DNA of 64,000 nucleotides, from the NCBI GenBank assembly GCA_017520845.1, contig JAFXEU010000067.1, positions 1 to 64,000 on the forward strand, given 5' to 3'. This DNA comes from Kiritimatiellia bacterium. Its GTDB lineage: Bacteria; Verrucomicrobiota; Kiritimatiellia; RFP12; UBA1067. The notes beneath the pieces were generated by a model that was given only the letters and a program-made list of their open reading frames with translations, searched no databases and was not told the DNA's origin. Of the stretch, positions 1 through 19,493 are shown piece after piece; position 1 is the stretch's first letter, and each line of letters opens with the position of its first letter. The position numbers were made by a program, and so were the translations under genes.

Positions 1-178
1 CGCAGATAGAAATCGTAGTGAGATCGAGCTCCCCGCCAACACCCTTAAAAGTAGGAGTGAAAAGCGTAAAGCCAGAAGGAACCTTAATCATTTGGTACCC
101 CACGATATTTGCACTCTCTAAAGCGAAAGTAACTGCCGCGCAGAGTCCTACGACCCCAGCAATCATTAATTTCTTCAT
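1..178 (-). CDS. Secreted protein of the ESANIVG family, 3' part outside window
   Basis: Only the first 59 codons are present; the gene runs off the left edge. The ATG at 176-178 has a good ribosome site (AAGGAG, about 9 bases upstream). The protein opens with a signal peptide (MKKLMIAGVVGLCAAVTFA) followed at once by the motif ESANIVGY and a segment reading KVPSGFTLFTPTF. I recall this layout, a signal peptide then [SA]N[IV]VGY and a glycine-rich FT[LM]F stretch, from secreted proteins of Verrucomicrobiota and Lentisphaerota gut genomes; its function is unknown to me. A 29-residue relative with the same start lies at 12658-12747. Confidence 0.7.
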   Translation of the reverse strand, partial: MKKLMIAGVVGLCAAVTFALESANIVGYQMIKVPSGFTLFTPTFKGVGGELDLTTISIC

Positions 179-484: not shown

Positions 485-518
485 ATCCATTTCACCCCAG
501 TAAAATAAGGGTGAAATG
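485..518 (-). terminator. Possible terminator hairpin
   Basis: On the minus strand a TTTCACCC...GGGGTGAAA stem is followed by TGGATTTTTGAGG. The T-run is short and a few bases off the stem, so this is a weak call. A near-identical stem occurs at 12984-13007 in the same accessory region. Confidence 0.35.
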
Positions 519-557
519 AGGGAACGGGGAACTGGGAATGGGAAACAGGGGACGGGG
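519..557. repeat. G-rich heptamer array A
   Basis: Imperfect tandem copies of a 7-base unit (GGGAACG, GGGAACT, GGGAATG, GGGAAAC). It is one of about eight arrays of the same unit in 0.5-19.5 kb. Runs of three to four G separated by three bases could form G-quadruplexes. Confidence 0.85.
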
Positions 558-618
558 ATCGAAAAATTTTTTCAAAAAAATTTCATTCGCTGTCGAGCTC
601 TCGCGAGGCTTTCCGCGG

Positions 619-668
619 TGGGAGAGGGAACGGGGAATAGGGAATAGGGAATAGGGAATAGGGAACGG
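619..668. repeat. G-rich heptamer array B
   Basis: Contains GGGAGAG, GGGAACG and then several perfect copies of GGGAATA before ending in GGGAACGG. The homogenised GGGAATA run suggests recent slippage or unequal exchange. Confidence 0.85.
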
Positions 669-676
669 TTTTAACT

Positions 677-821: not shown

Positions 822-1511
822 TTAAATCTCTTTGCGCTTGATGCGCTTAAGAATATTGCGCTGGAAATCTCGTGGGCCGCCGAAAAAGCGATTCTCTGAA
901 CAAGTCAGCGGTATGCCATTCTTGATCTTCAATTCCATCAGATGCAACGTACAGACAAGATTAGCCAATTGAAACAGCCTATATTTCGCGGGGCGCACAT
1001 TTTGAACGAATTCAACTGGGCAACCTACATCATTCTCAAATGTTTGATGCAATAGATTCGTGACTGGAGATTGACCGCAATCATAATAGACCTTAACCAC
1101 ATCAAGACACGATAATTCTTCATGACGAGAATTTAAAAACGCTATCAAATCATTCCTGAGACTTGTAACAATTTGGTCTGTTGAATCTATAAACTTCTTG
1201 TTGACGCTTAGGCAATGATAACGGAAATCCACATGATGGGCAAATGCCATCATTCGAGAAAGAATACGCGCCCGGAATTTTCGACTAAGTATTTCGTAAC
1301 CTTTTTCCTTGCGGATAAGTAGACCTGCATGAAAGCAATGCCCCTCTAATCCCAATTCTTCTTCCAACCGTTCCAAATCGGCTACGTGTTTCTCAATGCT
1401 CTGTGATTGATCGTGAAGAATCATTCCAAGAATATAAAACGGTGAGTCAGAGTCCGGATATTGGAATCTTCCAGACTCATCAATAAAAATACTCAACGTT
1501 TTTTCAGACAT
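822..1511 (-). CDS. DUF3800 protein, copy 1
   Basis: This encodes a 229-residue protein of the DUF3800 family (PF12686), which has an RNase H-like fold and no settled function; many members sit near mobile elements or defence genes. The N-terminal strand LSIFIDESGRF with Asp-Glu-Ser is the family hallmark. Later landmarks are HCFHAG, KVYYDCGQ (an Asp expected near the active site) and KYRLFQLANLVCTL. I chose the ATG at 1509-1511 because GAGGA lies about 7 bases upstream and the family usually starts within a few residues of the FIDESG motif; the frame stays open further upstream but there it covers the leader. A paralogue sits at 16788-17486, with the same promoter-like element upstream. It is closely preceded by a candidate structured leader. 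Confidence 0.85.
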   Translation of the reverse strand: MSEKTLSIFIDESGRFQYPDSDSPFYILGMILHDQSQSIEKHVADLERLEEELGLEGHCFHAGLLIRKEKGYEILSRKFRARILSRMMAFAHHVDFRYHCLSVNKKFIDSTDQIVTSLRNDLIAFLNSRHEELSCLDVVKVYYDCGQSPVTNLLHQTFENDVGCPVEFVQNVRPAKYRLFQLANLVCTLHLMELKIKNGIPLTCSENRFFGGPRDFQRNILKRIKRKEI

Positions 1512-1612
1512 TTTTCCTCGTATAAAATGAGATGGTGACGGAAATCTCTCCCCGTCACCAACGCGAAGTCTTCTCTCCGCATCCCGATGATCCCTACCTT
1601 TCGGTTGAGATC
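1512..1612 (-). ncRNA. Candidate structured leader of DUF3800 copy 1
   Basis: Between the promoter-like element and the gene lie several possible hairpins: GAGAT/ATCTC, ACC-GAAA-GGT with a GNRA-type loop, and an 8-base stem GGTGACGG/CCGTCACC (1534-1541 with 52-59) ending about 20 bases before the start codon. The second DUF3800 gene also has a perfect 8-base stem at the same place, with different sequence, followed by the same CCATC..C..TTTAT stretch. I recall that conserved RNA motifs called DUF3800 RNAs have been described upstream of such genes; whether this matches one of them was not tested. Confidence 0.45.
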
Positions 1613-1619
1613 GGTTCAT

Positions 1620-4673: not shown

Positions 4674-5588
4674 TTAAATCAAGTCCGTTACGCGAATATC
4701 ACCAATATTCGGTTGGGCTGGGTCGGCGTAATAATAGGTAATTGTCTTTATGTCATCGCCTGAAATCGACACAGCCATCTCCGCTCCGAACTTCTGATAT
4801 ACATGGTCGACGCATATTTTCCTCAGTTCATACGCACCTTTCGGACCATTGAAGCCCATATCGCGCATCTTCTGGTTGAGGCGTATGAAGATATCGTCAT
4901 CAAGAGTGGGGAGTTGATCGCCCTCCATCAAGGTCTGAATCTTATTCCATATTTCAGGATGAACCGGCCATTTGACCGTCCGCGCCGAGGAGTGAACCGT
5001 CTTATTCGGAGTATAGTTTAAATATACGCGCCCTTCGCGTTCAACAAAATTCCTCCGGCCAAGTCTCATGATATCGCCGTTTCGCATCGCAAACTCGAGC
5101 ATCATTGTTGTTACAAACCAAAGCTGGTCGATAGGCATAGACCGATACCATTCTTTTACCTTACCAAGCATTTCTCTTGAAGGCCGGGAATACCGGGGAG
5201 CCATCGGCTTCTTGCCGAACGATGGGAACATCGGCACTTTCCAGCCGTGATCTTCATAATAAGGACGCACCCAACGCGAGAAAAGCTGCCTAAGCTGGTA
5301 AATATATGTCATAGCCGTAATTGGCCGAGTACCACCCTTCAACAGATCTGCAAGGTACTTGTGTATTAAGGCAGGTTTTACCACCGACACCAGCGGAAAA
5401 CCATCTTCTAAATCTTTATAGTCATACCCGTTCTTCAACCTTCTTTCATTCATCCACCGAACAAAGCGCTTAACGCCCTGCTTCGTATTCTTGACCGTCC
5501 CCTTTTCAGGTCTGCCGCATTTCATTCGCTCAATGGCCGCAGCATCCACATAGGCCTTGAGCATTTTATCCATAGTTGGTGTTGTCAT
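4674..5588 (-). CDS. Divergent tyrosine recombinase
   Basis: The 304-residue protein has the layout of a phage-type integrase: a core-binding helical domain (about 30-115) and a catalytic domain (about 135-304). The first catalytic Arg is in FAMRNGD (Arg169), a Lys lies in the beta-hairpin (TPNKTVHS, Lys196), the second Arg is in YELRK (Arg256) and Tyr lies in TYYYAD (285-287). The two His positions are altered: HxxR reads YELR, and the GH before the nucleophile reads GD. Some active family members tolerate changes there, so activity is uncertain. The ATG has AAAGGA upstream. No clear attachment site was found next to it. Confidence 0.7.
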   Translation of the reverse strand: MTTPTMDKMLKAYVDAAAIERMKCGRPEKGTVKNTKQGVKRFVRWMNERRLKNGYDYKDLEDGFPLVSVVKPALIHKYLADLLKGGTRPITAMTYIYQLRQLFSRWVRPYYEDHGWKVPMFPSFGKKPMAPRYSRPSREMLGKVKEWYRSMPIDQLWFVTTMMLEFAMRNGDIMRLGRRNFVEREGRVYLNYTPNKTVHSSARTVKWPVHPEIWNKIQTLMEGDQLPTLDDDIFIRLNQKMRDMGFNGPKGAYELRKICVDHVYQKFGAEMAVSISGDDIKTITYYYADPAQPNIGDIRVTDLI

Positions 5589-5931: not shown

Positions 5932-6750
5932 TTACGCCTTATCAATCCTCTCAATCAACTCATTCGCCCACGCGACGGCTTCGTCGACAGTTTCCAGAAC
6001 TGCAAGCCCCCTTCCTGCGTCGGCATAAAGAGTATCCCATGTAGAACCTCTTACAACCTTCGGCGGCCAATTTTGGCGTCTGCGATAGTCGAAAAGCCTT
6101 AAGCAGATTTTTCTCGTAGCCGCTAAATCGACTTCTGAATTACTACACATAAGTTGGAGATCAATGAGGTCGTGAGGACGTTCTGCTCCTTCTGTTGTAA
6201 CCGCGTGTAATTTCTGCGCAATTTGATATGGAAGTTTCATCACCGGAACTGGTAATGGTCGAGGAAATCCAAGCTGTTCAAGGACATCGGCAATATCCGA
6301 AGGATATTCAAGTTCCGCTTCATCTGCGTCACCAATCTCATTATGTCCGATCTCAATTCGGACAGTTTGCCACGGCCTGTCGTTATAGGAGAGTTTTATG
6401 TCATAGGGAACCATAACATAAACTTGAGGCACACCTTCCGGATGCGGCGGCTCTACTCGCTGAAGTCTCCCTGTAAAGCCATTCCATCCAGCATTAAGGC
6501 GTTCTTCAAGTTTATCAAGATAAACTTCAAGACCCATGACTCGCGCTGTATCCATATCACGAGTATAGCGTGTCATGTCGCCGCCATAGCGAAACATTAG
6601 TGAACTGCCACCTTTTACCACACCATCAGGCAGCATTTGCGCTACGATGACGTTTGCGATTGCGCGGCTCAAACGCAGCGCATCACGCCCAGGGCCGGCA
6701 ATTCGGTTCACCGCCTTGATAAGGTTTGTGCAAGTGTTAGGTCTATTCAT
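5932..6750 (-). CDS. AbiEii-type nucleotidyltransferase toxin, copy 1
   Basis: This encodes 272 residues of the AbiEii/AbiGii family, the toxin half of type IV toxin-antitoxin and abortive-infection systems. Family members are DNA polymerase beta-like nucleotidyltransferases; MenT relatives add nucleotides to tRNA. The core motif is present: KGGSSLMFRYGG, then RDMDTARV, giving the G-G-S and D-x-D pattern. A later K-L-x-Y-Q-I-A-Q-K-L-H-A-V-T segment and RPHDLIDL are typical of the family. The start ATG shares one base with the stop of the AbiEi gene (TAATG), so translation is coupled. Confidence 0.88.
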   Translation of the reverse strand: MNRPNTCTNLIKAVNRIAGPGRDALRLSRAIANVIVAQMLPDGVVKGGSSLMFRYGGDMTRYTRDMDTARVMGLEVYLDKLEERLNAGWNGFTGRLQRVEPPHPEGVPQVYVMVPYDIKLSYNDRPWQTVRIEIGHNEIGDADEAELEYPSDIADVLEQLGFPRPLPVPVMKLPYQIAQKLHAVTTEGAERPHDLIDLQLMCSNSEVDLAATRKICLRLFDYRRRQNWPPKVVRGSTWDTLYADAGRGLAVLETVDEAVAWANELIERIDKA

Positions 6751-7277
6751 TATGCAAATTCCTTTTTAAGTTCTTGATATTCCTGCCTTCCGACAAGACC
6801 TTGTCGCCCAGCATCTTCAATCGCTTCCATCAATCGCTCTTTCATTACAGTTCCCTTACATGTGCGAATTGCATCAGCTACCGTTTGACGAGCAATCCCC
6901 TCATACACCTCTTCTTTTACAGAATCATCCTTCTTAACGAGCCGAATCCATTCCGGAAGTTTCTTGCGAACGCGCTTGCCCACGGCAACCTGAATCTGCC
7001 TTGGATTTACCAGCGCAAGATTATGCATGGACAAAACTCCGTCTCCATATATGATGGCATCTTCTCCAACAAGAGCAACCGCCTCTGCATAATGGTCAAA
7101 AGGAGTAGGAACATGATGATTGAGCCGATATACGCCACGTCCACACCGCTCAAGCCGCCCCATATTTTCCCAAAAAAGCAATTGTTTACGGTGAATGCCT
7201 AACCGCGCAGCATCCTCGACCGTAATAAGACCGTATCTTTCAACGGCGGCATCATACACTTTCTCAAAATTTTTCAT
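6750..7277 (-). CDS. AbiEi antitoxin/repressor, copy 1
   Basis: The 175-residue protein has an N-terminal winged-helix region (about 1-60: RYGLITVEDAARLGIHRKQLLFWENMGRLERCGRGVYRL) and a C-terminal domain as in AbiEi antitoxins, which neutralise AbiEii without direct contact and repress their own operon. The start codon lies only six bases downstream of a TATCAT -10 box and has no ribosome site, so the mRNA is probably leaderless. Four copies of an operator half-site surround the promoter (see 7277-7366), fitting autoregulation. Confidence 0.88.
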   Translation of the reverse strand: MKNFEKVYDAAVERYGLITVEDAARLGIHRKQLLFWENMGRLERCGRGVYRLNHHVPTPFDHYAEAVALVGEDAIIYGDGVLSMHNLALVNPRQIQVAVGKRVRKKLPEWIRLVKKDDSVKEEVYEGIARQTVADAIRTCKGTVMKERLMEAIEDAGRQGLVGRQEYQELKKEFA

Positions 7278-7416: not shown

Positions 7417-8277
7417 TCATACCTCATCCTTGGCGGCATCGCCGCCCCTCGAAAACATCACCGCATTATCAGGATCAAGGTATAGCCCAAGCGCCCTTAC
7501 CGCCGCCAGAATTGTGCCGGAATTGGCGCAACGTGACCGTCCCATCGACTCTGCGCCCTTCACAAGAAAATCCATGCCGCCCAATTCAATAAGCCGTGCT
7601 GTCACCGCATCTTCCGGGAGATCCTGGATCTGCGCAAGATAACACACCACTTCTTTTATGAGCCACTGCGGCGAGCCTTTAGGATAGGCCTTGTTCGCCA
7701 TTTTCTTATTGTACGCCGCCCACTGCTCGCTCGACCATTTCTCCTGCTCAACTGCAAGCGCAGCCGCCCTTCTCTTTCGGCGGTACTCCCTGTTGTACAC
7801 GCGAATCTTATCGCGCCTGCGTTCCCTCATCGCCGCTTCCATATCGCGGTCGTACCGCTTGCGTCCTTCAAACTCCTCTGGAGTTTCTGGCTTCTTCCCG
7901 AGCCTAAAGCCATACTTCTCCTTAATGTACGCCTTGCGCTCTTCACGCAAAAGCCGCTTCTTCTCTTTTGCGGCCAATTCTTCCGGGGCTCGAGCCTTGC
8001 GCTCCATTCGCTCTCTTGCCTTGTCGCACTTTTTCTGATCGCGTTCGAGCCGGGCGATCAAGTAATCCTCAAAAGACTTGCGGCACTCAAGGAGACAGGC
8101 ATTCCATTCTTTTCTCTGCTCTTGCGTCCATTCCGTTTTCTTCTTCGGAAGCTTCATCTTCCTGCGCATCATCTTCACCTTGTTCTTGTACGCAGTTACC
8201 TTCCACGGATAAGTCTCTCTCGCAAGCTCAAGCAAAAACCGCCGAGCCTCATGTTCTCTTCTAAGCTCTTCTCTCAT
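7417..8277 (-). CDS. Charged protein with conserved C-terminal domain, last gene of integrase operon
   Basis: I do not recognise this 286-residue family. Residues 1-115 are Arg/Lys/Glu-rich helices. At 116-157 lies a YGF repeat unit (KEKYGFRLGKKPETPEEFEGRKRY then RDxE and basic residues), which occurs twice in the upstream neighbour. The C-terminal domain from about 200 (GSPQWLIKEVVCYLAQ, LIELGGMDFLVKGAESMG, AVRALGLYLDP) is well conserved in a decayed copy at 16372-16736, so it is the selected, functional part. It starts two bases after the preceding stop. The basic, helical make-up suggests nucleic-acid contact; that is inference. Confidence 0.65.
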   Translation of the reverse strand: MREELRREHEARRFLLELARETYPWKVTAYKNKVKMMRRKMKLPKKKTEWTQEQRKEWNACLLECRKSFEDYLIARLERDQKKCDKARERMERKARAPEELAAKEKKRLLREERKAYIKEKYGFRLGKKPETPEEFEGRKRYDRDMEAAMRERRRDKIRVYNREYRRKRRAAALAVEQEKWSSEQWAAYNKKMANKAYPKGSPQWLIKEVVCYLAQIQDLPEDAVTARLIELGGMDFLVKGAESMGRSRCANSGTILAAVRALGLYLDPDNAVMFSRGGDAAKDEV

Positions 8278-8279
8278 CT

Positions 8280-9314
8280 TTAATCCTCCCCCTTCTCTTG
8301 AGCCTCGTTCTTTGCTGCTTGTCGCATCTCCAAATACCGCTGAATATTAGCCTCGCGCTCCAAGCGATACCTTTCCTCCAGCGCCAGCTCCGCTTCTCGC
8401 CTTGCCGCATTCTTCGCGACCTGCTCACGCCACCGAGCCACCCGCTCCTCCCGCTCTCGCCTCTTTAAAAGGAACTCCCTCTTCCTCGCCTCTGCCTTTG
8501 TGAGCTTTATTCGAAGAACTCTACTCTCAATATGCGCCTGTCGGCGCTCTTTAGCCAAACGCTCCTTCTCAAGTTTCCTCTGTTCGCGCTCCTTGGCAAT
8601 TCGCTCTTCTCGCTCCGCCTGGGCCTTGAGTTTCTCGTAAAGCTTCTGCTGACGGTAACGCACCCTTTCTTCATGCGTCATCCGCTGAATCATGCAGAGC
8701 TTTTCGTGTTTCGCCCTCTCCTTGGCAGCAGCCTTTGGATCGGTCGCTTCAAGAATCTTCATCCTCTCTTCAAAGCGCCGCTCATTCTCCTCGCGCCGTT
8801 TCGCGTTCTGTCTCTTTTGGCGCTCTTCGATCCGCTCTCGGTTCTTTAGCCTGTATTCCTTCTCACGATCCTTGCGATACCGTTCCCGACCGGCAAGCTC
8901 TTCTGCAGTCTTGGGAGGAGTATTCAGGTCAAACCCGTACTTCTCGCGAATATGCGCTTTCTGAGCATCATACTCCTTGCGCTTCTTTTTCTCTTCTCGC
9001 GCCTTTAGCCACTTTTCACCGCCACGCGCCTCATGAATACTTTCAAAGCCCGGCTTTTGAACCTTTACCCAATATTCATGCCGCCTCGCCCTCAACTCCT
9101 CACGATGCGTTTCCCGGTATCGTTTCTGCCAATCTCTGTAATAGCGCCGATGCGCTTCTTTTTCCGCAGCCGTTTTCAACTTGACGCCGAGCAGAAAACC
9201 ATATTCCTTCAATACCACCTTCTGCTTTTCAATAAACAATAAAAACTTCGATGGCTTTAAATCGCTCACCTCACTGTTGGGTGGAAAAACCTTCTCCTGG
9301 AAACCTCTACTCAT
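8280..9314 (-). CDS. Highly charged helical protein with two YGF repeats
   Basis: This 344-residue protein is extremely rich in Arg, Lys and Glu and is probably a long helix or coiled coil after residue 170. Two copies of a roughly 40-residue unit are seen (about 36-75 and 124-165, GTG-based numbering): [KE]YGF, a P-K-T-A-E-E stretch, R-x-x-Y-x-[RK]-D, then Y-R and basic residues. The same unit appears once in the next gene. ATG 9312-9314 is preferred over the in-frame GTG at 9323 because GGGGGTGGG lies just upstream of the ATG. It overlaps the end of the upstream gene by 8 bases, so the two are translationally coupled. Family unknown; low complexity makes similarity searches unreliable. Confidence 0.6.
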   Translation of the reverse strand: MSRGFQEKVFPPNSEVSDLKPSKFLLFIEKQKVVLKEYGFLLGVKLKTAAEKEAHRRYYRDWQKRYRETHREELRARRHEYWVKVQKPGFESIHEARGGEKWLKAREEKKKRKEYDAQKAHIREKYGFDLNTPPKTAEELAGRERYRKDREKEYRLKNRERIEERQKRQNAKRREENERRFEERMKILEATDPKAAAKERAKHEKLCMIQRMTHEERVRYRQQKLYEKLKAQAEREERIAKEREQRKLEKERLAKERRQAHIESRVLRIKLTKAEARKREFLLKRREREERVARWREQVAKNAARREAELALEERYRLEREANIQRYLEMRQAAKNEAQEKGED

Positions 9315-10428
9315 AATTCCCACCCCCGGTATTCATCCCTTCCACCGCTCGATAGTAGAACTCAAGCGCTCTGACCGCATCTGAAACGCGCCCTCGAAGA
9401 AGAGCCTCAGCCTCACGACCTTGAATCGCCTTTACATTGTCGACGCTTCGCATGAGCCAACCGACCACCCCGTCATCAAGAAATCTCGCCATCACACGCT
9501 GCCGGCTCATCCCGACCCTCTCCGCAAAGCGCGTTACTACATTTTCAAGGAAGTATGTCCTTCTCGATGCATTTCCCTTTTCCCTCGTAGACGAATGCAT
9601 CTTCTCCAAAAGAATCTCTCTTTCCGCCGCTCGGTTCTCTGGATCGACCCTTCTTGTGAACCTAAGTATTCTATCCGGAAACTGATACCCTCTTAAGGCT
9701 CCCCCGTCCTCCCAAGGCTCCCTGCCCGGCACAACCCAGTACATCGCCTTTTCAACGAGCCTGCGACCAGCTCTCGTCGTAACACCGCATTTTCTTTCCT
9801 TTTCATAGCGGTGATTAAGAACAATAAATGAATTGTTGCTAATGACTTCGTGAAGTATCACATCCTCGTCAATATCATCGTCAGACTCTATAAAAACGCT
9901 TCTCGCGCCAGCCATCCCTGCAAGGCCCAAGGCATCTGCAATGCTCTCCCCGAAAATCTCATGCGGTGAACGCTGATTCCAAAACGGTCCCCACGGCGTT
10001 ATTCGCTTTCTGAAGGCATCCGGGTAAATCTCCACCTCCACCTCAAGGTAGCACTCCTTCTTGACGCGCTCATCCGCCGTACCGGGGGCTCGGACGATCA
10101 TCTTCCCCATCTTCGCCCCCGCCTTGGGAATGGCCGTTATCGTGTCGAAATCCTCATCCGATATCTCAAATACATACGAGCGCGTTCCCGATATCTGATG
10201 CCACAGTTCCGCATGACCGTCCGGATTTATCCGCATTCCGTTGATGGTAAAGGCCGTTTCCCTTTGAACAGCCTCGTATGCAAGCTTCCATTTCGGCCAA
10301 CACCGAAATACCAGTTTATCCCGATGCCGCCAGCGACCTATGAAATTCGGAGCGAGAAAGGACGATGAAGGGACGGCAACTTTCTTCTCCTCGCCGTCAT
10401 CCGCCATAATCTCTTTCTCGCTTTCCAT
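9307..10428 (-). CDS. Unrecognised protein, second gene of integrase operon
   Basis: The 373-residue protein matches no family I know. The first 200 residues look like a mixed beta domain (FIGRWRHRDKLVFRCWPKWK, FTINGMRINPDG, YVFEISDEDFDTITAI). The C-terminal third is helical and includes a helix-turn-helix-like segment (VVTRFAERVGMSRQRVMARFL, near residue 310) and the phrase REAEALLRGRVSDAVRALEFYYRAV. An acidic patch (ESDDDIDED) lies near residue 190. It starts 8 bases after the integrase stop. A DNA-binding or replication accessory role is possible, but this is guesswork from position and the HTH-like stretch. Confidence 0.6.
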   Translation of the reverse strand: MESEKEIMADDGEEKKVAVPSSSFLAPNFIGRWRHRDKLVFRCWPKWKLAYEAVQRETAFTINGMRINPDGHAELWHQISGTRSYVFEISDEDFDTITAIPKAGAKMGKMIVRAPGTADERVKKECYLEVEVEIYPDAFRKRITPWGPFWNQRSPHEIFGESIADALGLAGMAGARSVFIESDDDIDEDVILHEVISNNSFIVLNHRYEKERKCGVTTRAGRRLVEKAMYWVVPGREPWEDGGALRGYQFPDRILRFTRRVDPENRAAEREILLEKMHSSTREKGNASRRTYFLENVVTRFAERVGMSRQRVMARFLDDGVVGWLMRSVDNVKAIQGREAEALLRGRVSDAVRALEFYYRAVEGMNTGGGNYE

Positions 10429-10436
10429 TTATTCCC

Positions 10437-12482
10437 TCATCCCTTCTTTGCGTTCAAATAGACATCCAACCCATCAAGAGCATCTCCCAAGGATATCGCA
10501 GCACCTCTTTCCCACAACTCCTGCAGGAATCGATACCCGCCATTGCCGACAAGCTTCGAAGTCCCCTCCAATAGCGATGTCTTCTTTAACTGACACCACC
10601 TTCTAACACACCGCCCGATCCATTCGTTACGCTCTTTGCGATCCCTCGATGGTGTCACAGCCGTTTGAGGAGCATTTTCACCCCAGCCGCCAAGCTGCTG
10701 TGCATCGCTGTTCGCCGCCTCGACGCTGGCGAGCTTCTCCTCTCGCCGGGCGAGAGAGCGCTCGGCAAACCGTCCCGTCGCCGGGGCTTCAACATGGGGA
10801 TTCGCCCGCTCTACGCCATCTGCGCTCACAACAATCGCAGGCTCCGCCTCGTAGGCGATCTGTGGCGCTTTAGGGACGCTGTTGGGTAAAACCGCCTGCC
10901 CCTTCACAAAAGGCGACGTGGGGGCGTTACAGCCCTTGTACGCGAGCCTTGAGGCGTCTGGCTGGGCAACCTTGCCCTCGGAGATGTCTCCTGTCTCGGA
11001 AATCGAGGGGATTGCCTCGACCGCCTGCTGAAGAGCCGCCACATTCTCATGGTAATAGTGCCTCGTCATCGCCGTCGATTCATGCCCGACAATCGCCTGG
11101 ACGATGTGGAGCGGCACACCCGCATTCGCGGACATTGAAACAAAGGTATGTCTAAGGGAGTGGAATGAAGCCTCCGGAGCCTTCCACTTTCGCCCCTCGA
11201 CCGCTACCGAGGTTACGATTCCGGCATTGTGGAATATCTTACCGATGCGGTGGTGAATTCTCCCCATCCCCTTCGGACCAAGAGCCGCCCACTCACCTAT
11301 TTGCGGAAGAACATACCCCGTTCGGTTCTCGATGGGCGTTTGCATAAGAAGATCGGCGAGAACCTTGTGGATCGGAATCGTCACCGGCCGTCCGCGACGG
11401 TACTTCTTCGTCTTCTCCGGAACCTTCTGAATGATGGAGCGGACAATATCCACCTCCGCCCAGGTGAGCTTGCAGCAGTCCCCAAGTCGCATTCCGGTGT
11501 ACATGGCGATACCGAAGAGGGTCCTGAACTCCGCGCTCTCCCTCGAAGCCATATCGACAAGCCTCGCCAGCTCCTCGATCGTCAGCTCGCGCCGCGTATG
11601 GGAATCGTCCGCCCTCAAAGGAAAGCCGTCCCAAGGGTTCTCCTTGGCCGCCGCCTTCTTCATGATCGTGCGATGAACCTCCCGCAAGACGCAAAGGCGG
11701 TTATTGTAGGTGGAGGCTGAATGATCCTTGCGGAGGGAATTGAGGTAGTTTTCGGTATGGTAGCGAGTTAAGTGGCGAACCTCAGTGACCTCCGGGAAAA
11801 GTAAATTTAGGTGTTCGACAAACTTCCTGACCACCTGCTCCTTACCGTTCAAGGTAGTCTGAGCAAGATCCCTTCGCATCGGTGAGGCAACATAGGCACT
11901 CCACATATCGGCAATCGTAAGCTGCGGACCTTCCGCCTCTCTCATCGCCGCAAGCTGTCTTTCCGTCATAACGGCAGCCTGAATGTTCTCGAACGTCCTC
12001 TCGGCGTCGTCCTTCACATAAGGAGCCATAAAGCGCTTAGCGAATTGCTCAGCCTCAGCCCTATCGCGAGTTCCGGTCGACTTGCTGATACGCCTGCCGT
12101 TGATGATACACCTTACAGTCCAAATGCCGGTCTTCTCAAGCTGAAGGCCACCCAAGCCCTTAGTCCTTCTGCGGCGAGTCTCCTTCGCCCGCGCCTTACG
12201 CTTAAGTGTTTCCCCTTCAGAACTCTCGACTTCAAAATCCTCAGTCATATCTCCTCCTTCACCCTTGGCAACACCACCGCTACACTGGTTTATTATCACA
12301 CTTGAATCTTTTGCGCACTGGTTTATCGCCACCGTATCATTTTCTAAAATATTCTTATCTTCCGCGTCATTCTCAGACTGTACTATCATCACAGTTGAAT
12401 TTTCTTGAGACTGTTCTACGTTTACAACAACGCGATCAGGCTCAAGAACTACACTTTCGATCTCATTCTGATCCAAATTCAT
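10437..12482 (-). CDS. Large tyrosine integrase with unusual N- and C-terminal extensions
   Basis: This 681-residue site-specific recombinase has an arm-type domain (about 110-170), a core-binding domain (185-285) and a catalytic domain (295-490). Catalytic residues are all visible: Arg332 in TGMRLGD, Lys near 360, His441 and Arg444 in HSLRH, His467 in GHES, and Tyr476/477 in RHYYHE. Two features are odd: an acidic N-terminus (1-80) with four short repeats of the type V-x-[IV]-x-Q-[SC], and a 190-residue tail after the catalytic Tyr with no known domain. Being the first gene of a four-gene operon is unusual for integrases. A strong promoter lies about 80 bases upstream. An alternative start at Met79 would remove the repeats. 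Confidence 0.88.
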   Translation of the reverse strand: MNLDQNEIESVVLEPDRVVVNVEQSQENSTVMIVQSENDAEDKNILENDTVAINQCAKDSSVIINQCSGGVAKGEGGDMTEDFEVESSEGETLKRKARAKETRRRRTKGLGGLQLEKTGIWTVRCIINGRRISKSTGTRDRAEAEQFAKRFMAPYVKDDAERTFENIQAAVMTERQLAAMREAEGPQLTIADMWSAYVASPMRRDLAQTTLNGKEQVVRKFVEHLNLLFPEVTEVRHLTRYHTENYLNSLRKDHSASTYNNRLCVLREVHRTIMKKAAAKENPWDGFPLRADDSHTRRELTIEELARLVDMASRESAEFRTLFGIAMYTGMRLGDCCKLTWAEVDIVRSIIQKVPEKTKKYRRGRPVTIPIHKVLADLLMQTPIENRTGYVLPQIGEWAALGPKGMGRIHHRIGKIFHNAGIVTSVAVEGRKWKAPEASFHSLRHTFVSMSANAGVPLHIVQAIVGHESTAMTRHYYHENVAALQQAVEAIPSISETGDISEGKVAQPDASRLAYKGCNAPTSPFVKGQAVLPNSVPKAPQIAYEAEPAIVVSADGVERANPHVEAPATGRFAERSLARREEKLASVEAANSDAQQLGGWGENAPQTAVTPSRDRKERNEWIGRCVRRWCQLKKTSLLEGTSKLVGNGGYRFLQELWERGAAISLGDALDGLDVYLNAKKG

Positions 12483-12563
12483 ACTGTGCTATCTTGCCTC
12501 GCTTAGTGCTTCCTTGCAAAAAAATTAGCGTCCGAAGGCCCAATTGCCCTCAAAACGCCGCTT

Positions 12564-12592
12564 ATTGTACAGTATAAACCAGTCTATGTCAA
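12564..12592 (-). promoter_or_regulatory. Strong promoter of the integrase operon
   Basis: TTGACA (12587-12592) and TACAAT (12564-12569) are 17 bases apart on the minus strand. The spacer contains ACTGGTTTAT, which also occurs twice, in the opposite orientation, inside the start of the integrase gene (12284-12293 and 12317-12326). That could mark binding sites for a regulator, perhaps the integrase itself. Confidence 0.75.
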
Positions 12593-12657: not shown

Positions 12658-12747
12658 TTATCCAACGACGTTCGCGCTCTCTACGCCTTCTGCGAAAGTT
12701 ACTGCAACACAGAGTGAAGCAGCCAAACCAAGCATCATTTTCTTCAT
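12658..12747 (-). pseudogene. Remnant of an ESANVVG secreted protein gene
   Basis: From the ATG at 12745-12747, with a fine ribosome site (GGGAGG), the frame encodes a signal peptide (MKKMMLGLAASLCVAVTFA), then EGVESANVVG and a TAA stop after only 29 residues. The partial gene at the left edge has the same order of elements but continues for at least another 30 residues. The likeliest reading is a truncated gene cut just after the motif, perhaps when the integrase element arrived. It might instead be a real secreted peptide, as the start signals are intact. Confidence 0.55.
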
Positions 12748-13098
12748 TTTAACCTCCCGGGACCCAGCCCGAATTGTTTTTGAAAACGAAAACTCATTTA
12801 CGATACCCTGATCGCCAACTTGTTCTCGTTCATTTTGCCTGTACAGATGAAACCCACCTTGAGTTTCGACTATCCGCCCAAGCACCAATATTTTACACGA
12901 TATTGAGATTGTTTGTAAAGTGGGGTATACTCCCCTTCTACTTCTAACTTATACGCGGATGTGCATTTCGGCCAATAAAAATAGGGGTGAAACCCACTTT
13001 TCACCCCCTTAAAAATATTTTTTAATTTCTTTTATTTTCTCTCCCCTTCCCATCGCTACCGCCGCATTTTCACCCCTCGCGCGGTATTAATAACTGAA
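12748..13098. other. Gap with terminator and AT-rich DNA
   Basis: About 350 bases without a convincing gene. It contains a terminator-like hairpin (12974-13008) for the gene at 13099 and a transition into AT-rich DNA. A TTTCACCCC motif recurs near 13067. Confidence 0.5.
12974..13008 (-). terminator. Terminator after the 13099-14531 gene pair
   Basis: On the minus strand GGGGTGAAA and TTTCACCCC form a 9-base stem with a short loop, followed by TATTTTTATT. It lies about 90 bases after the stop at 13099. Confidence 0.7.
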
Positions 13099-16371: not shown

Positions 16372-16736
16372 TCATCCCTTTGCGGCTTCGCCACTCGCAA
16401 ACATCACCGCACTCTCCGGATCAAGATATAGCGCCAGCGCTCTCACAGCTGCAATAACCATTGTTGCTGTTCCGCATCGTTGCTCTCCCATCGACTCAGC
16501 CCCTTTAACAAGAAAATCCATGCCGCCAAGCTCAATAAGCTTCTCGGTTATCACCTCTTCCGGCAATTGTTGAGCTTGAGAGAGGTATCTTACAACCTCC
16601 TTAACCAACCACTGCGGCGAGCCTTTTGGATTTCGCTTCTTCTCCTGCTTCTTTTCAAATCGCTCCCACTCTTCGCTCGACCATTTCGCCTGCTGAGCCT
16701 CAAGAGCCTCAGCCCTTTTCTAATCTCGTCCTTCAT
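16372..16736 (-). pseudogene. Decayed copy of the gene at 7417-8277
   Basis: The frame ending at 16372 encodes the same C-terminal domain as the gene at 7417-8277, with the stretch LIELGGMDFLVKGAESMG identical. The homologous frame continues upstream through KWSSEEWERFEKK to a TAG near 16717. An ATG with a good ribosome site (GAGAGG, 16734-16736) lies in another frame just before it (MKDEIRK), and a one-base shift in AAAAGGG would join the two. The first 160 residues of the intact gene have no counterpart. This looks like a truncated, frameshifted relic of a second element; flanking CTCATACCTCATCC sequence is also shared with the intact copy. Confidence 0.7.
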
Positions 16737-16749
16737 TTGCCTCTCTTTT

Positions 16750-16787
16750 GGGGAACGGGGAACGGGGAATGGGGAATGGTAATGGGA
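16750..16787. repeat. G-rich heptamer array G
   Basis: GGGGAACGGGGAACGGGG and GGGGAATGGGGAAT units fill the space between the stop codon of DUF3800 copy 2 and the relic gene. Four G-runs with three-base loops form a textbook quadruplex pattern. Confidence 0.85.
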
Positions 16788-17486
16788 TTAAATCCAGCGC
16801 TTGCGTTCAAGCGGCTTGAAAAAGTTCTTCCTCAAGCTTTGTATATTAAGAAAGAATAGTTTCTCTGTTTCAGAAATCTTCTTCTCTATCTCAAACTTAA
16901 TGCGCAGCAATTCAAGCGTAGCAATCATATCAGCAGCTTGAAACAAGCGATACCTTGATGGCAACACTTCTGGCACAAAATCTACACGGGATGAAAATAT
17001 TGCAAACGCCGTCTTTAATAATGCCAAAACCTCTTCCTGCCCATTATCGTAATATACCTTCAACTTCCCAAACGAATTAAAGTCATCAACATGAGTAATC
17101 AAGAAGCGCGTTATTTGCTGAAGCAGCTGGTCATGTAATTCTCCAGCGCTTGTAACATATTTTTTATCCACCCAAAAAGTCTGAAACTTAATCGGCGCAT
17201 GGCGAATAAAAGACATCATTCGATTAAATACAACGCGCCTATCTTGTCGTTTCAGATTACGATATGGTTCTTCCCAACGAACTAGCGGGCCTGCATGAAT
17301 CGCATGATCTTCAGCTAAATTCAACTGCAATAACATCTCGTTGAGTCGTGCTATGTCATCTAAAACGGAATCTGACTGATTATGAAAAACCATGCAGACA
17401 AGGTAATATCGAGAAGAATGAACATCAGGAGAAAAGCTTCCTGACTCATCAACAAAGATACTTATTTCCTTTACGCCATTCTTCAT
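16788..17486 (-). CDS. DUF3800 protein, copy 2
   Basis: This 232-residue paralogue of the protein at 822-1511 has the same landmarks: ISIFVDESGSF at the N-terminus, HAIHAGPL, KVYYDNGQ and RYRLFQAADMIATLELL. The start chosen is ATG 17484-17486, nine codons before the DESG motif; the open frame extends further upstream but there it covers the leader. The ribosome site is weak (AAGAACAG). The heptamer array begins immediately after the stop. Copies 1 and 2 differ widely in sequence but share promoter and leader layout, so they probably descend from a mobile cassette that carried its own control region. Confidence 0.85.
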   Translation of the reverse strand: MKNGVKEISIFVDESGSFSPDVHSSRYYLVCMVFHNQSDSVLDDIARLNEMLLQLNLAEDHAIHAGPLVRWEEPYRNLKRQDRRVVFNRMMSFIRHAPIKFQTFWVDKKYVTSAGELHDQLLQQITRFLITHVDDFNSFGKLKVYYDNGQEEVLALLKTAFAIFSSRVDFVPEVLPSRYRLFQAADMIATLELLRIKFEIEKKISETEKLFFLNIQSLRKNFFKPLERKRWI

Positions 17487-17642
17487 TGTCTGTTCTTGAT
17501 AAAGTGATGGCGAGGCTTGCGCCTCGCCAACGGCAGGGGCTTCCCCGCCAGCCGGTGGACTCCAGATAAATCCTTTGTCCAAAATTCTCTTAAGGCGGAG
17601 AACTTCCCCCGCTTCTCGAAGATCCCGCGTTAACAGCAAGAT
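17487..17642 (-). ncRNA. Candidate structured leader of DUF3800 copy 2
   Basis: About 155 bases between promoter and gene contain several stable stems: GCGG/CCGC around GGGAAGTTCT, GGAC/GTCC, GGCGGGG with CCCCTGCC, and a perfect GGCGAGGC/GCCTCGCC stem (17509-17528, loop TTGC) just before the start. The last stem takes the same place as a different-sequence stem in copy 1, followed by CCATCACTTTAT. Conservation of structure without sequence supports a functional RNA. Confidence 0.45.
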
Positions 17643-17649
17643 CACCTGT

Positions 17650-17678
17650 ATTTTCTCATATATCGTTTCAGAAGGCAA
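17650..17678 (-). promoter_or_regulatory. Conserved promoter/operator of DUF3800 copy 2
   Basis: TTGCCT (17673-17678) and GAAAAT (17650-17655), spaced by 17 bases, with the spacer nearly the same as in copy 1 (TCTGAA.CG..ATATGA). Flanking bases (AATTCC..ACTTGC) are also shared. Confidence 0.6.
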
Positions 17679-17765
17679 GTAGGAATTTGTAAAAGTTCCC
17701 CACCCGCGTTCTATATCGCTACCGCGGCATTTTAGGCGCTCGCGCGGTTTTGGCGGCTTCGCCGC

Positions 17766-17816
17766 GGGGAACGGGGAATGGGGAACGGGGAACGGGGAAT
17801 GGGGAATGGGGAATGG
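17766..17816. repeat. G-rich heptamer array H
   Basis: Seven near-perfect units of GGGGAAC/GGGGAAT abut the TGA stop codon of AbiEii copy 2 with no base between. It is the most regular array in the window and has a strong quadruplex pattern. Confidence 0.9.
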
Positions 17817-18653
17817 TCAGAAAATTGCCGTCAATACCTGACGAATTTTTTCACATACTTCATCAAACGGTATTCCTTTAGCATACGAGAATTCGCGGCA
17901 ATATTTTTCCCATCTTTCACGCATTGCACTTGAACCCTCGATCAACCTCAAGCCAGCCGACCAGCCTTCAAGTACTTCTTCCGTACCACGATGAATCGCC
18001 GTTGACCGTAATGCACTCGATAATCTCGCATTGCCATACTTTACAGTACAAAGAATCATATATGCATCATAGTAGTCACGTGGCCGCGTTGAAAGAACAC
18101 CAAGCGAAAGTATCGCTTCAATTTTTTCAGCCAGGACAGTTTCGATCGTATATGCCTTGATCCGGAAGTTACCGTTAGGCGTAAAACGACTCATGAAGAT
18201 GAAATCTTGAGGCGCGGGCGTTATCGCGTCCCCAGTCGATATATCTATCGAAAATGGTACAACGATTCCCTTATATGCAGCAATCAACTTAACTCTAAAT
18301 CCACCATACATATCATCATGACGAATCGGTGCAATTGATTTTAGATCCCAACTAATATCGTCTTCTAAATCAACCGTGAACACCATGTTGAGGTATTGCG
18401 TTATCGTCTCTTCAGAAAGTTTCGCTCCTACCATCGTCAAGTCGATATCCATCGTCGACCTTTTCGACAAGCCTAAATACTGAGAGATCAATGTTCCGCC
18501 TTTAACGATCAGGTTCTCATAGATAGTCGTCTTAGATAACCTTGCGAAGAAACGCTCAAACATGAAATTCTGAAGTACCACTTGCGCAGGTATCTGCTCT
18601 TCACTTGCGATACGTTTTATCCTCGCTTTAAAACTCATTTGCTCTGAACTCAT
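17817..18653 (-). CDS. AbiEii-type nucleotidyltransferase toxin, copy 2
   Basis: The 278-residue protein is a second member of the AbiEii family and is only distantly like copy 1. The nucleotidyltransferase motif is KGGTLISQYLGLSKRSTMDIDLT, with G-G-T and D-I-D. Further family landmarks are VPFSIDISTGD, IETVLAEKIEAIL and RPRDYYDAYMIL. Its start overlaps the AbiEi stop (ATGA), so production is coupled to the antitoxin. As AbiEii toxins act on host translation components, two different copies may answer different triggers; that is inference. Confidence 0.9.
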   Translation of the reverse strand: MSSEQMSFKARIKRIASEEQIPAQVVLQNFMFERFFARLSKTTIYENLIVKGGTLISQYLGLSKRSTMDIDLTMVGAKLSEETITQYLNMVFTVDLEDDISWDLKSIAPIRHDDMYGGFRVKLIAAYKGIVVPFSIDISTGDAITPAPQDFIFMSRFTPNGNFRIKAYTIETVLAEKIEAILSLGVLSTRPRDYYDAYMILCTVKYGNARLSSALRSTAIHRGTEEVLEGWSAGLRLIEGSSAMRERWEKYCREFSYAKGIPFDEVCEKIRQVLTAIF

Positions 18654-19291: not shown

Positions 19292-19305
19292 CCGCCCCGC
19301 TTAAT

Positions 19306-19493
19306 GGGGAATGGGGAACGGGGAACGGTTGGGAACGGGGAACGGGGAACGGGGAATGGGGAATGGGGAACGGGGAATGGTTGGGAACGGGGAACTGGGA
19401 ACGGTGAGAAATGGGAACACCGTTCCCCCACTACCGTTCCCCATTCCCCCACTACCGTTCCCCATTCCCCAACGGGAAGAGGGACTGTCCCCC
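19306..19493. repeat. G-rich heptamer array I with inverted half
   Basis: The largest array, about 190 bases. The left part reads GGGGAAC/GGGGAAT on the plus strand with two GGTT interruptions; the right part (from about 19428) reads GTTCCCC/ATTCCCC, so the two halves can fold back on each other. It lies between AbiE pair 2 and the fucosidase gene, at the right edge of the accessory region. Confidence 0.9.

Follow-up and report, generated by a model that had tools for sequence, protein, structure and literature searches.

The 64,000-nucleotide stretch of DNA analyzed here (the window; positions 1 to 64,000 of contig JAFXEU010000067.1 from a Kiritimatiellia bacterium) carries a site-specific integrative island whose tyrosine integrase, as we consider slightly more probable than not from its sequence, acts together with an accessory complex that includes an exapted Cas12a core. 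Four genes on the minus strand, encoding the integrase, g2, g3, and g4, form the operon of the island, and profile comparisons identify g2 as a remote, reduced relative of Cas12a that has lost the RuvC catalytic residues, the REC lobes, and any CRISPR array. The window starts at the end of contig C62 in a 2.74-Mb metagenome-assembled genome (MAG). A first-pass annotation, made from the letters of the window, had described a strong promoter, a 681-residue integrase, and three tightly linked genes as a candidate mobile element. The coordinates are as claimed, and so are the junctions, with an 8-base gap between the integrase gene and g2, an 8-base overlap of g2 and g3, and a 2-base gap between g3 and g4. 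The operon and its upstream boundary consist of the following parts.

12658 to 12747, minus strand: truncated signal-peptide gene (MKK...ESANVVG-stop), the host side of the left attachment site, with the same truncation in L021, L022, and L024 and a natural empty site.
12564 to 12592, minus strand: sigma-70 type promoter of the operon, TTGACA-17-TACAAT, with 11 of 12 consensus matches, aligned in L021, L022, and L024.
12573 to 12583, plus strand: operator-like 11-mer ATAAACCAGT within the promoter spacer, in the opposite orientation to the pair inside the integrase gene.
12518 to 12559, minus strand: leader hairpin followed by 7 T (an intrinsic terminator/attenuator or an RNA of ~45 nt), with a fold of -17.6 kcal/mol and pairs kept in four loci.
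10437 to 12482, minus strand: tyrosine integrase of 681 amino acids (aa), by Pfam PF00589, PHROG 1, and alignment A4.
12284 to 12327, minus strand: (A/G)ATAAACCAGT present twice at a spacing of 33 bp within the 5' portion of the integrase coding sequence, from motif matches.
9307 to 10428, minus strand: g2, 373 aa, reduced and nuclease-dead Cas12a relative by profile comparisons.
8280 to 9314, minus strand: g3, 344 aa from the ATG (a GTG start at 9323 is also possible), a basic coiled-coil-like protein with YGF units, corresponding to the N-terminal part of a 666-aa protein in relatives.
7417 to 8277, minus strand: g4, 286 aa, with a YGF unit and a C-terminal domain shared with g2, corresponding to the C-terminal part of the same 666-aa protein.

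By itself, g2 retrieved nothing in Pfam, PHROGs, NCBIfam, or PADLOC single-protein searches. Among 192 related genomes, full-length relatives of g2 were found in G107, G109, and G001, a 94%-identical fragment in G104, and a decayed copy in G018, together with weak matches over g2 residues 224 to 316 in proteins of 590 to 950 aa. We count g2 as a Cas12a relative because of remote homology through mini-Cas12a intermediates, which are encoded at loci L027, L029, and L031 (590 to 642 aa). These proteins match Cas12a at E values of 1e-15 to 1e-19 in PADLOC and of 6e-19 in PDB, and they are colinear with a genuine 1,318-aa Cas12a from genome G125 (E = 1.6e-24) across WED-I, WED-II/III, and RuvC-II. 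They have lost the RuvC-I aspartate, the RuvC-II glutamate, all of RuvC-III, most of REC, and the segment for processing of precursor CRISPR RNA (pre-crRNA); the roles of the lost residues in catalysis and pre-crRNA processing are those generally known for Cas12a. A profile built from the three mini-Cas12a proteins only, without g2 (A2), finds g2 of the window at E = 4.2e-8 in a search within the host genome, and hhalign relates g2 to mini-Cas12a at 6.5e-9 and to a 921-aa relative at 7e-10. When the g2 profile was compared with 177,635 PDB sequences, Cas12a accounted for 14 of the 15 matches with E values of at most 1.2, each time at the same position. The first-pass annotation had stated that the three genes downstream of the integrase match no known family, which does not hold for g2; it stands for g3 and g4, for which Pfam, PHROGs, and NCBIfam gave nothing (nor did PADLOC for the fused g3/g4 protein).

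Two parts of Cas12a (Cpf1, type V-A) appear to be retained in g2, a WED-I-like strand at residues ~30 to 45 and the WED-III/RuvC-I/RuvC-II segment at residues ~80 to 260. Alignment A6 is colinear over residues 80 to 260 and ends at YWVVPGREPWEDGGALRGYQFPDR, the counterpart of Cas12a KLNYLVFKD....GG.L.AYQLT; g2 keeps the signature KLNYLV..GG.LRGYQ. In contrast to Cas12a, with its ~1,200 to 1,300 aa, the 373-aa g2 sits in an integrase operon and has no REC lobes (alignment gaps). RuvC-I IIGxDRGE and RuvC-II VxEDLN, with the catalytic D and E, are replaced in g2 as well as in the A2 members, and RuvC-III is absent. Neither the window nor the element loci showed a CRISPR array with a Cas12a-type repeat, in contrast to the 15 repeats at the locus of the genuine Cas12a (L070, in G125); no Cas12a-type hairpins were found within the element, and no guide-like match to the target site. 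Related bacteria hold a size series consisting of Cas12a (1,318 aa), a ~920-aa form, mini-Cas12a (~600 aa), and g2 (373 aa). The ~920-aa family (L026:6192-8957, L028:99-2885, L071:3390-6164, and L030) contains two copies of the same Cas12a-derived module, at about 310 to 402 and 740 to 825; it is the partner gene of mini-Cas12a in L027 and lies near cousin integrases in L026 and L030.

The integrase matches Pfam PF00589 at 2.9e-23 and PHROG 1 at 2.6e-56, and its catalytic residues are intact (R332, H441xxR444, H467, and Y476/Y477, invariant in alignment A4). Upstream of it, a 29-codon open reading frame (ORF), MKKMMLGLAASLCVAVTFAEGVESANVVG plus a stop codon, ends at 12658 and is the start of a secreted-protein gene. 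The junction between host and element, GTTGGATA followed by AAAC at ~12659/12658, falls inside a Tyr codon, which breaks the gene between SANVVG and Y; the element starts at 12659, ~180 bp upstream of the stretch delimited in the first-pass annotation. In intact relatives the secreted protein reads ...SAN(V/I)VGYQ..., and downstream of its gene lie a PEP-CTERM gene and three others. A truncation to SAN(V/I/T)VG-stop just before the integrase is also found in L021, L022, and L024. At L021 the element is complete with both ends (7,061 bp), the rest of the host gene (VVGYTQTG...) lies on the far side, and joining of the flanks gives one uninterrupted reading frame. A natural empty site was found as well: the gene is intact in G107 and its G109 orthologue is occupied, the two sequences diverging right after GTTGT(C/G)GGCTA. 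This empty site and the complete element at L021 demonstrate site-specific insertion, which bears out the mobile element proposed earlier. The right arm (attR), CAC-TT-CTGCACSRYNTCTGCACC, is common to eight loci and lies ~75 nt before the core CGYTGTSGGNTA. Comparison of these loci establishes, at the level of sequence, that the integrase family inserts at the NVVGY codons after the signal peptide, with the core and the conserved arm, and that insertion truncates the host secreted-protein gene, which is restored when the flanks are joined.

Other genes and gene remnants of the same type were noted. At window positions 1 to 178, the contig breaks ~100 bp into an intact SANIVGY gene, and the L024 contig breaks at the corresponding place; this contig-end gene and the truncated copy at 12658 are the only SANVVGY-type genes that we found in the host genome. 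At L113, L116, L117, and L118, the integrase stops ~40 to 160 bp before a promoterless VVGY... C-terminal fragment. These cousins of the element are smaller and occupy sites of the same type; their left ends were not found.

The order integrase-g2-g3/g4 recurs in four ruminant-gut Kiritimatiellae genomes, and in all four loci g2 begins no more than 8 bp after the integrase gene or overlaps it. Among named records, the nearest are MAGs labeled as uncultured bacterium or Kiritimatiellae (RUG14821, RUG10619, and RGIG9427 from yak cecum). Compared with a 171-codon fragment in another genus, g2 has 0.020 nonsynonymous (dN) and 0.35 synonymous (dS) substitutions per site (dN/dS of 0.056), and between L021 and L022 dN is well below dS for g2, the integrase, and g3/g4; as judged by these ratios, g2 is under purifying selection. 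This selection and the recurring gene order show more than a chance arrangement. The fragment from the other genus (L023:6783-7298) has 92% DNA identity to g2, which points to horizontal transfer between genera, although the fragment lies at a contig end. There it is fused to an apparent secreted-protein gene, a possible transfer or an assembly chimera.

A degraded prophage or phage satellite that kept an integrase and three early genes by chance would be quite improbable. It is L024 that speaks for such an origin, since replication-initiator-like, small-terminase, and large-terminase genes (L024:5915-8800) lie downstream of the integrase-g2-g3 module there; the right end of L024 was not found, and the locus may be a phage-related version of the element. 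Two other loci, however, carry integrase-g2-g3/g4 with different cargo and without a phage gene, the complete 7-kb element at L021 has no structural genes, and searches of IMG/VR and INPHARED did not turn up the module. Protein searches of IMG/VR (four scans), INPHARED, and PLSDB gave no g2 relative, and a viral origin was rejected on these searches. The first-pass annotation had seen no capsid, relaxase, or transposase gene, which is correct for the operon interval of the window. Its suggestion of a satellite-like element is unproven, as no phage packaging or capsid-hijacking genes were found in the window interval or L021 and terminase occurs only beside the L024 module.

In L021 and L022, one protein of about 666 aa takes the place of g3 and g4, and the idea that three unrelated unknown genes follow the integrase was rejected on this ground and on the domain that g2 and g4 share. 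As noted earlier, a YGF unit is common to g3 (two copies) and g4 (one copy). The C-terminal domain of g4 had also been described as conserved; we found this helical C-terminal domain to be shared by g2 (hhalign, 7.7e-8). In L022 the linker connecting the g3 half to the g4 half comes from an array of GGGGAAC/GGGGAAT heptamers (L022:8239-8310), and a change in copy number of this array would shift the reading frame. Arrays of the same heptamers and their complements are found in intergenic regions of the window (506 to 669, 1670 to 1733, 2468 to 2518, 16737 to 16801, 17753 to 17831, and 19303 to 19474) and resemble the short tandemly repeated repetitive (STRR) heptamers of cyanobacteria.

A similar domain probably forms the C terminus of the integrase, which is suggestive rather than proven: when a profile of that C terminus was run against 2,462 ORFs, the three best non-self matches were C termini of g3/g4 (E values of 0.006, 0.07, and 0.19). 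In the wider integrase family, the C terminus is instead a SHOCT-like domain that scores below the Pfam cutoff, and the L027 mini-Cas12a has the same kind of ending. In both lineages, the integrase and the Cas12a-like protein thus appear to carry matching C-terminal domains, and it is therefore argued that the two work together. The integrase, g2, and g3/g4 would form one nucleoprotein complex, in which the WED/RuvC core of g2 might serve as a nucleic-acid-binding scaffold for attachment-site DNA or leader hairpin RNA and might stabilize or regulate integration and excision. In a more specific version, which we hold to be improbable, g2 would bind the leader hairpin RNA and switch the integrase between integration and excision via the C-terminal domain shared with g4 and probably with the integrase.

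Expression of the operon may be under its own control. The promoter at 12592 to 12564 is the best in the region, in agreement with the first-pass annotation, which missed the hairpin and T-run just after it (12559 to 12518). The hairpin is kept in four loci with changes on both sides in 3 to 4 of 13 pairs, the share of paired cells being inflated since the structure was taken from one of these loci. The 11-mer ATAAACCAGT has 5 matches in the window versus 1.06 expected; its layout, with one copy in the promoter spacer and an inverted pair in the integrase gene, is shared by L021 and L022 and is repeated in L024 with another operator-like motif, a 14-mer. The arrangement of hairpin and 11-mer copies fits autoregulation plus attenuation, in which the leader terminator, together with the integrase or a partner bound to the ATAAACCAGT operators, would hold the operon down. 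A small RNA partner for g2 is possible.

The same leader bears on another reading, by which g2 and its larger relatives would be RNA-dependent regulators of the integrase promoter or of the secreted-protein operon, similar to TldR, a RuvC-family RNA-guided nuclease that has lost catalysis and is linked to other genes, including on prophages (PMC13418256). We regard this as unlikely for g2, if less so than the other alternatives. It has TldR as a precedent, and g2 is likewise a RuvC-family protein with lost catalysis that is linked to other genes; behind a strong promoter lies a conserved hairpin RNA in which pairs have changed on both sides, and two relatives of 590 to 640 aa lie divergently beside intact SANVVGY operons and share their C-terminal domain with an operon protein. 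However, g2 lacks the REC lobes that hold the guide:target duplex, neither a guide-like match to the target site nor a Cas12a-type repeat was found, and the hairpin with its T-run resembles an ordinary terminator or attenuator. TldR moreover derives from TnpB and has a demonstrated guide RNA, whereas the matches of g2 are to Cas12a and its leader hairpin gave no guide match. A TldR-like role may apply above all to the 590- to 640-aa forms beside intact SANVVGY operons. The two proteins in question (L029:5493-7271 and L031:2993-4912) are nuclease-dead Cas12a relatives without an integrase, and the domain at their C terminus recurs at the N terminus of an operon protein (window 2477 to 1728); they are candidate regulators of the adjacent SANVVGY operon.

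The retained part of g2 could also suggest a counter-defense decoy that competes for crRNA handles or for Cas12a itself and so protects the island during transfer. The WED and RuvC-II side of Cas12a, which g2 keeps, overlaps the part that holds the crRNA handle. A phage-encoded dead Cas9 with RNA matching host repeats has been proposed as such an anti-CRISPR mimic (PMC10910872), and g2 resembles it, both being Cas homologues that have lost their activity and lie on mobile elements lacking an array; g2 differs in its far smaller size and in that no Cas12a was found in the host of the island. Because no full-length Cas12a turned up in the host genome or in those genomes of the host family that were sampled (1 of 126 relatives has one), a decoy is less likely; the mini-Cas12a relatives have lost the segment for pre-crRNA processing, and a decoy role would explain neither the translational coupling of g2 to the integrase nor the domain that g2 and g4 have in common. 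We therefore place little weight on it.

Several results weigh against an integrase that works with an exapted Cas12a core. The best PDB match of the g2 profile (E = 0.005) is weak on its own, AlphaFold models of g2 are poor (predicted local distance difference test [pLDDT] score of 55 with 4 and with 9 sequences), and Foldseek matches of g2 to Cas12a, at E values of 0.04 to 0.2, are not significant, the first list being uninformative. Foldseek ranks Cas12a first only if the AlphaFold input alignment already contains Cas12a relatives and does not provide independent support. The link of the integrase C-terminal domain to g4 is weak. Furthermore, the same core and arm serve integrase cousins in which no Cas12a-like gene was detected. 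Targeting is accordingly ascribed to the integrase itself, a role for g2 in guiding insertion is unlikely, and an RNA-guided choice of the insertion site was rejected as the main idea. Finally, no right end was found in the window by the arm and core pattern, nor were remnants of the secreted-protein C terminus found between the element and p312. Because the arm and the rest of the host gene were not found there, the window copy may be stranded and perhaps unable to excise.

Downstream of g4, and beyond the left end of the island, the window holds the following features.

6750 to 7277, minus strand: AbiEi-type antitoxin/regulator, cargo (Pfam PF13338, 2.2e-9; PADLOC AbiEi, 1.6e-48).
5932 to 6750, minus strand: AbiEii-type nucleotidyltransferase toxin, cargo (Pfam PF08843, 7.4e-21; PADLOC AbiEii, 6.6e-103).
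4674 to 5588, minus strand: 304-aa degenerate tyrosine-recombinase-like protein (PHROG 1, 1.3e-9; homologues at L105:2999-3886 and L072:5279-6022).
16372 to 16740, minus strand: decayed copy of the C-terminal part of g4 (63% aa identity over 16378 to 16734, one in-frame TAG; hidden Markov model match).

The AbiEi and AbiEii genes are adjacent and in order after g4, side by side as is usual for AbiE type IV toxin-antitoxin systems, with nothing unusual in the island. AbiE-family genes also occur in four other loci, after the module in L022, near integrases in L030 and L112, and beside a decayed module in L025. AbiE toxin-antitoxin is a recurrent cargo of the island, which upholds the defense-carrying part of the earlier suggestion, and it would addict or protect the host. 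With the 304-aa protein, whose membership is uncertain, the island may reach its right side; in the family of this protein, E replaces the active-site H, and relatives adjoin SANVVGY-type operons (L105 and L072). The decayed g4 copy, already seen in the first-pass annotation, is the remnant of another element, and with the insertions in several relatives it makes it likely that the element has arrived more than once, as had been supposed.

Two DUF3800 genes are present in the window (822 to 1619 and 16788 to 17678). The second has 94.5% DNA identity to a copy in G001 (L130), which adjoins the same 145 bp that are present at window positions 12944 to 13088. Between two genes of the secreted-protein operon, at 2524 to 2874, lies a gene for a four-helix-bundle protein of the 23S-intervening/Avd type (TIGR02436).

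Islands that combine an integrase, tightly linked genes of unknown role, and defense cargo are known, such as those of the gamma-mobile-trio (GMT). The island described here differs from GMT in its other partner genes, its site, and its hosts, and NCBIfam GmtZ (NF047926) matches the integrase over ~50 aa only, at 22 bits versus a cutoff of 600. In the open-access literature we found no report of a Cas12a reduced to a catalytically dead core of 373 to 640 aa, nor of a dead Cas12a core in a tyrosine-integrase operon; measured against that literature, integrase-led islands with defense cargo are known and the dead Cas12a core tied into the integrase operon appears to be new. RNA-guided nucleases have documented cases of exaptation in TnpB (TldR), CRISPR-associated transposons, and dead-Cas mimics. 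The present operon suggests that a mobile element has taken over parts of an RNA-guided enzyme as an aid to its own movement or regulation, and, were g2 to gate the integrase through the leader RNA, a tyrosine recombinase would be under the control of an exapted CRISPR effector. Its targets are secreted-protein genes, at the codons after the signal peptide, and insertion and excision would switch such genes off and on.

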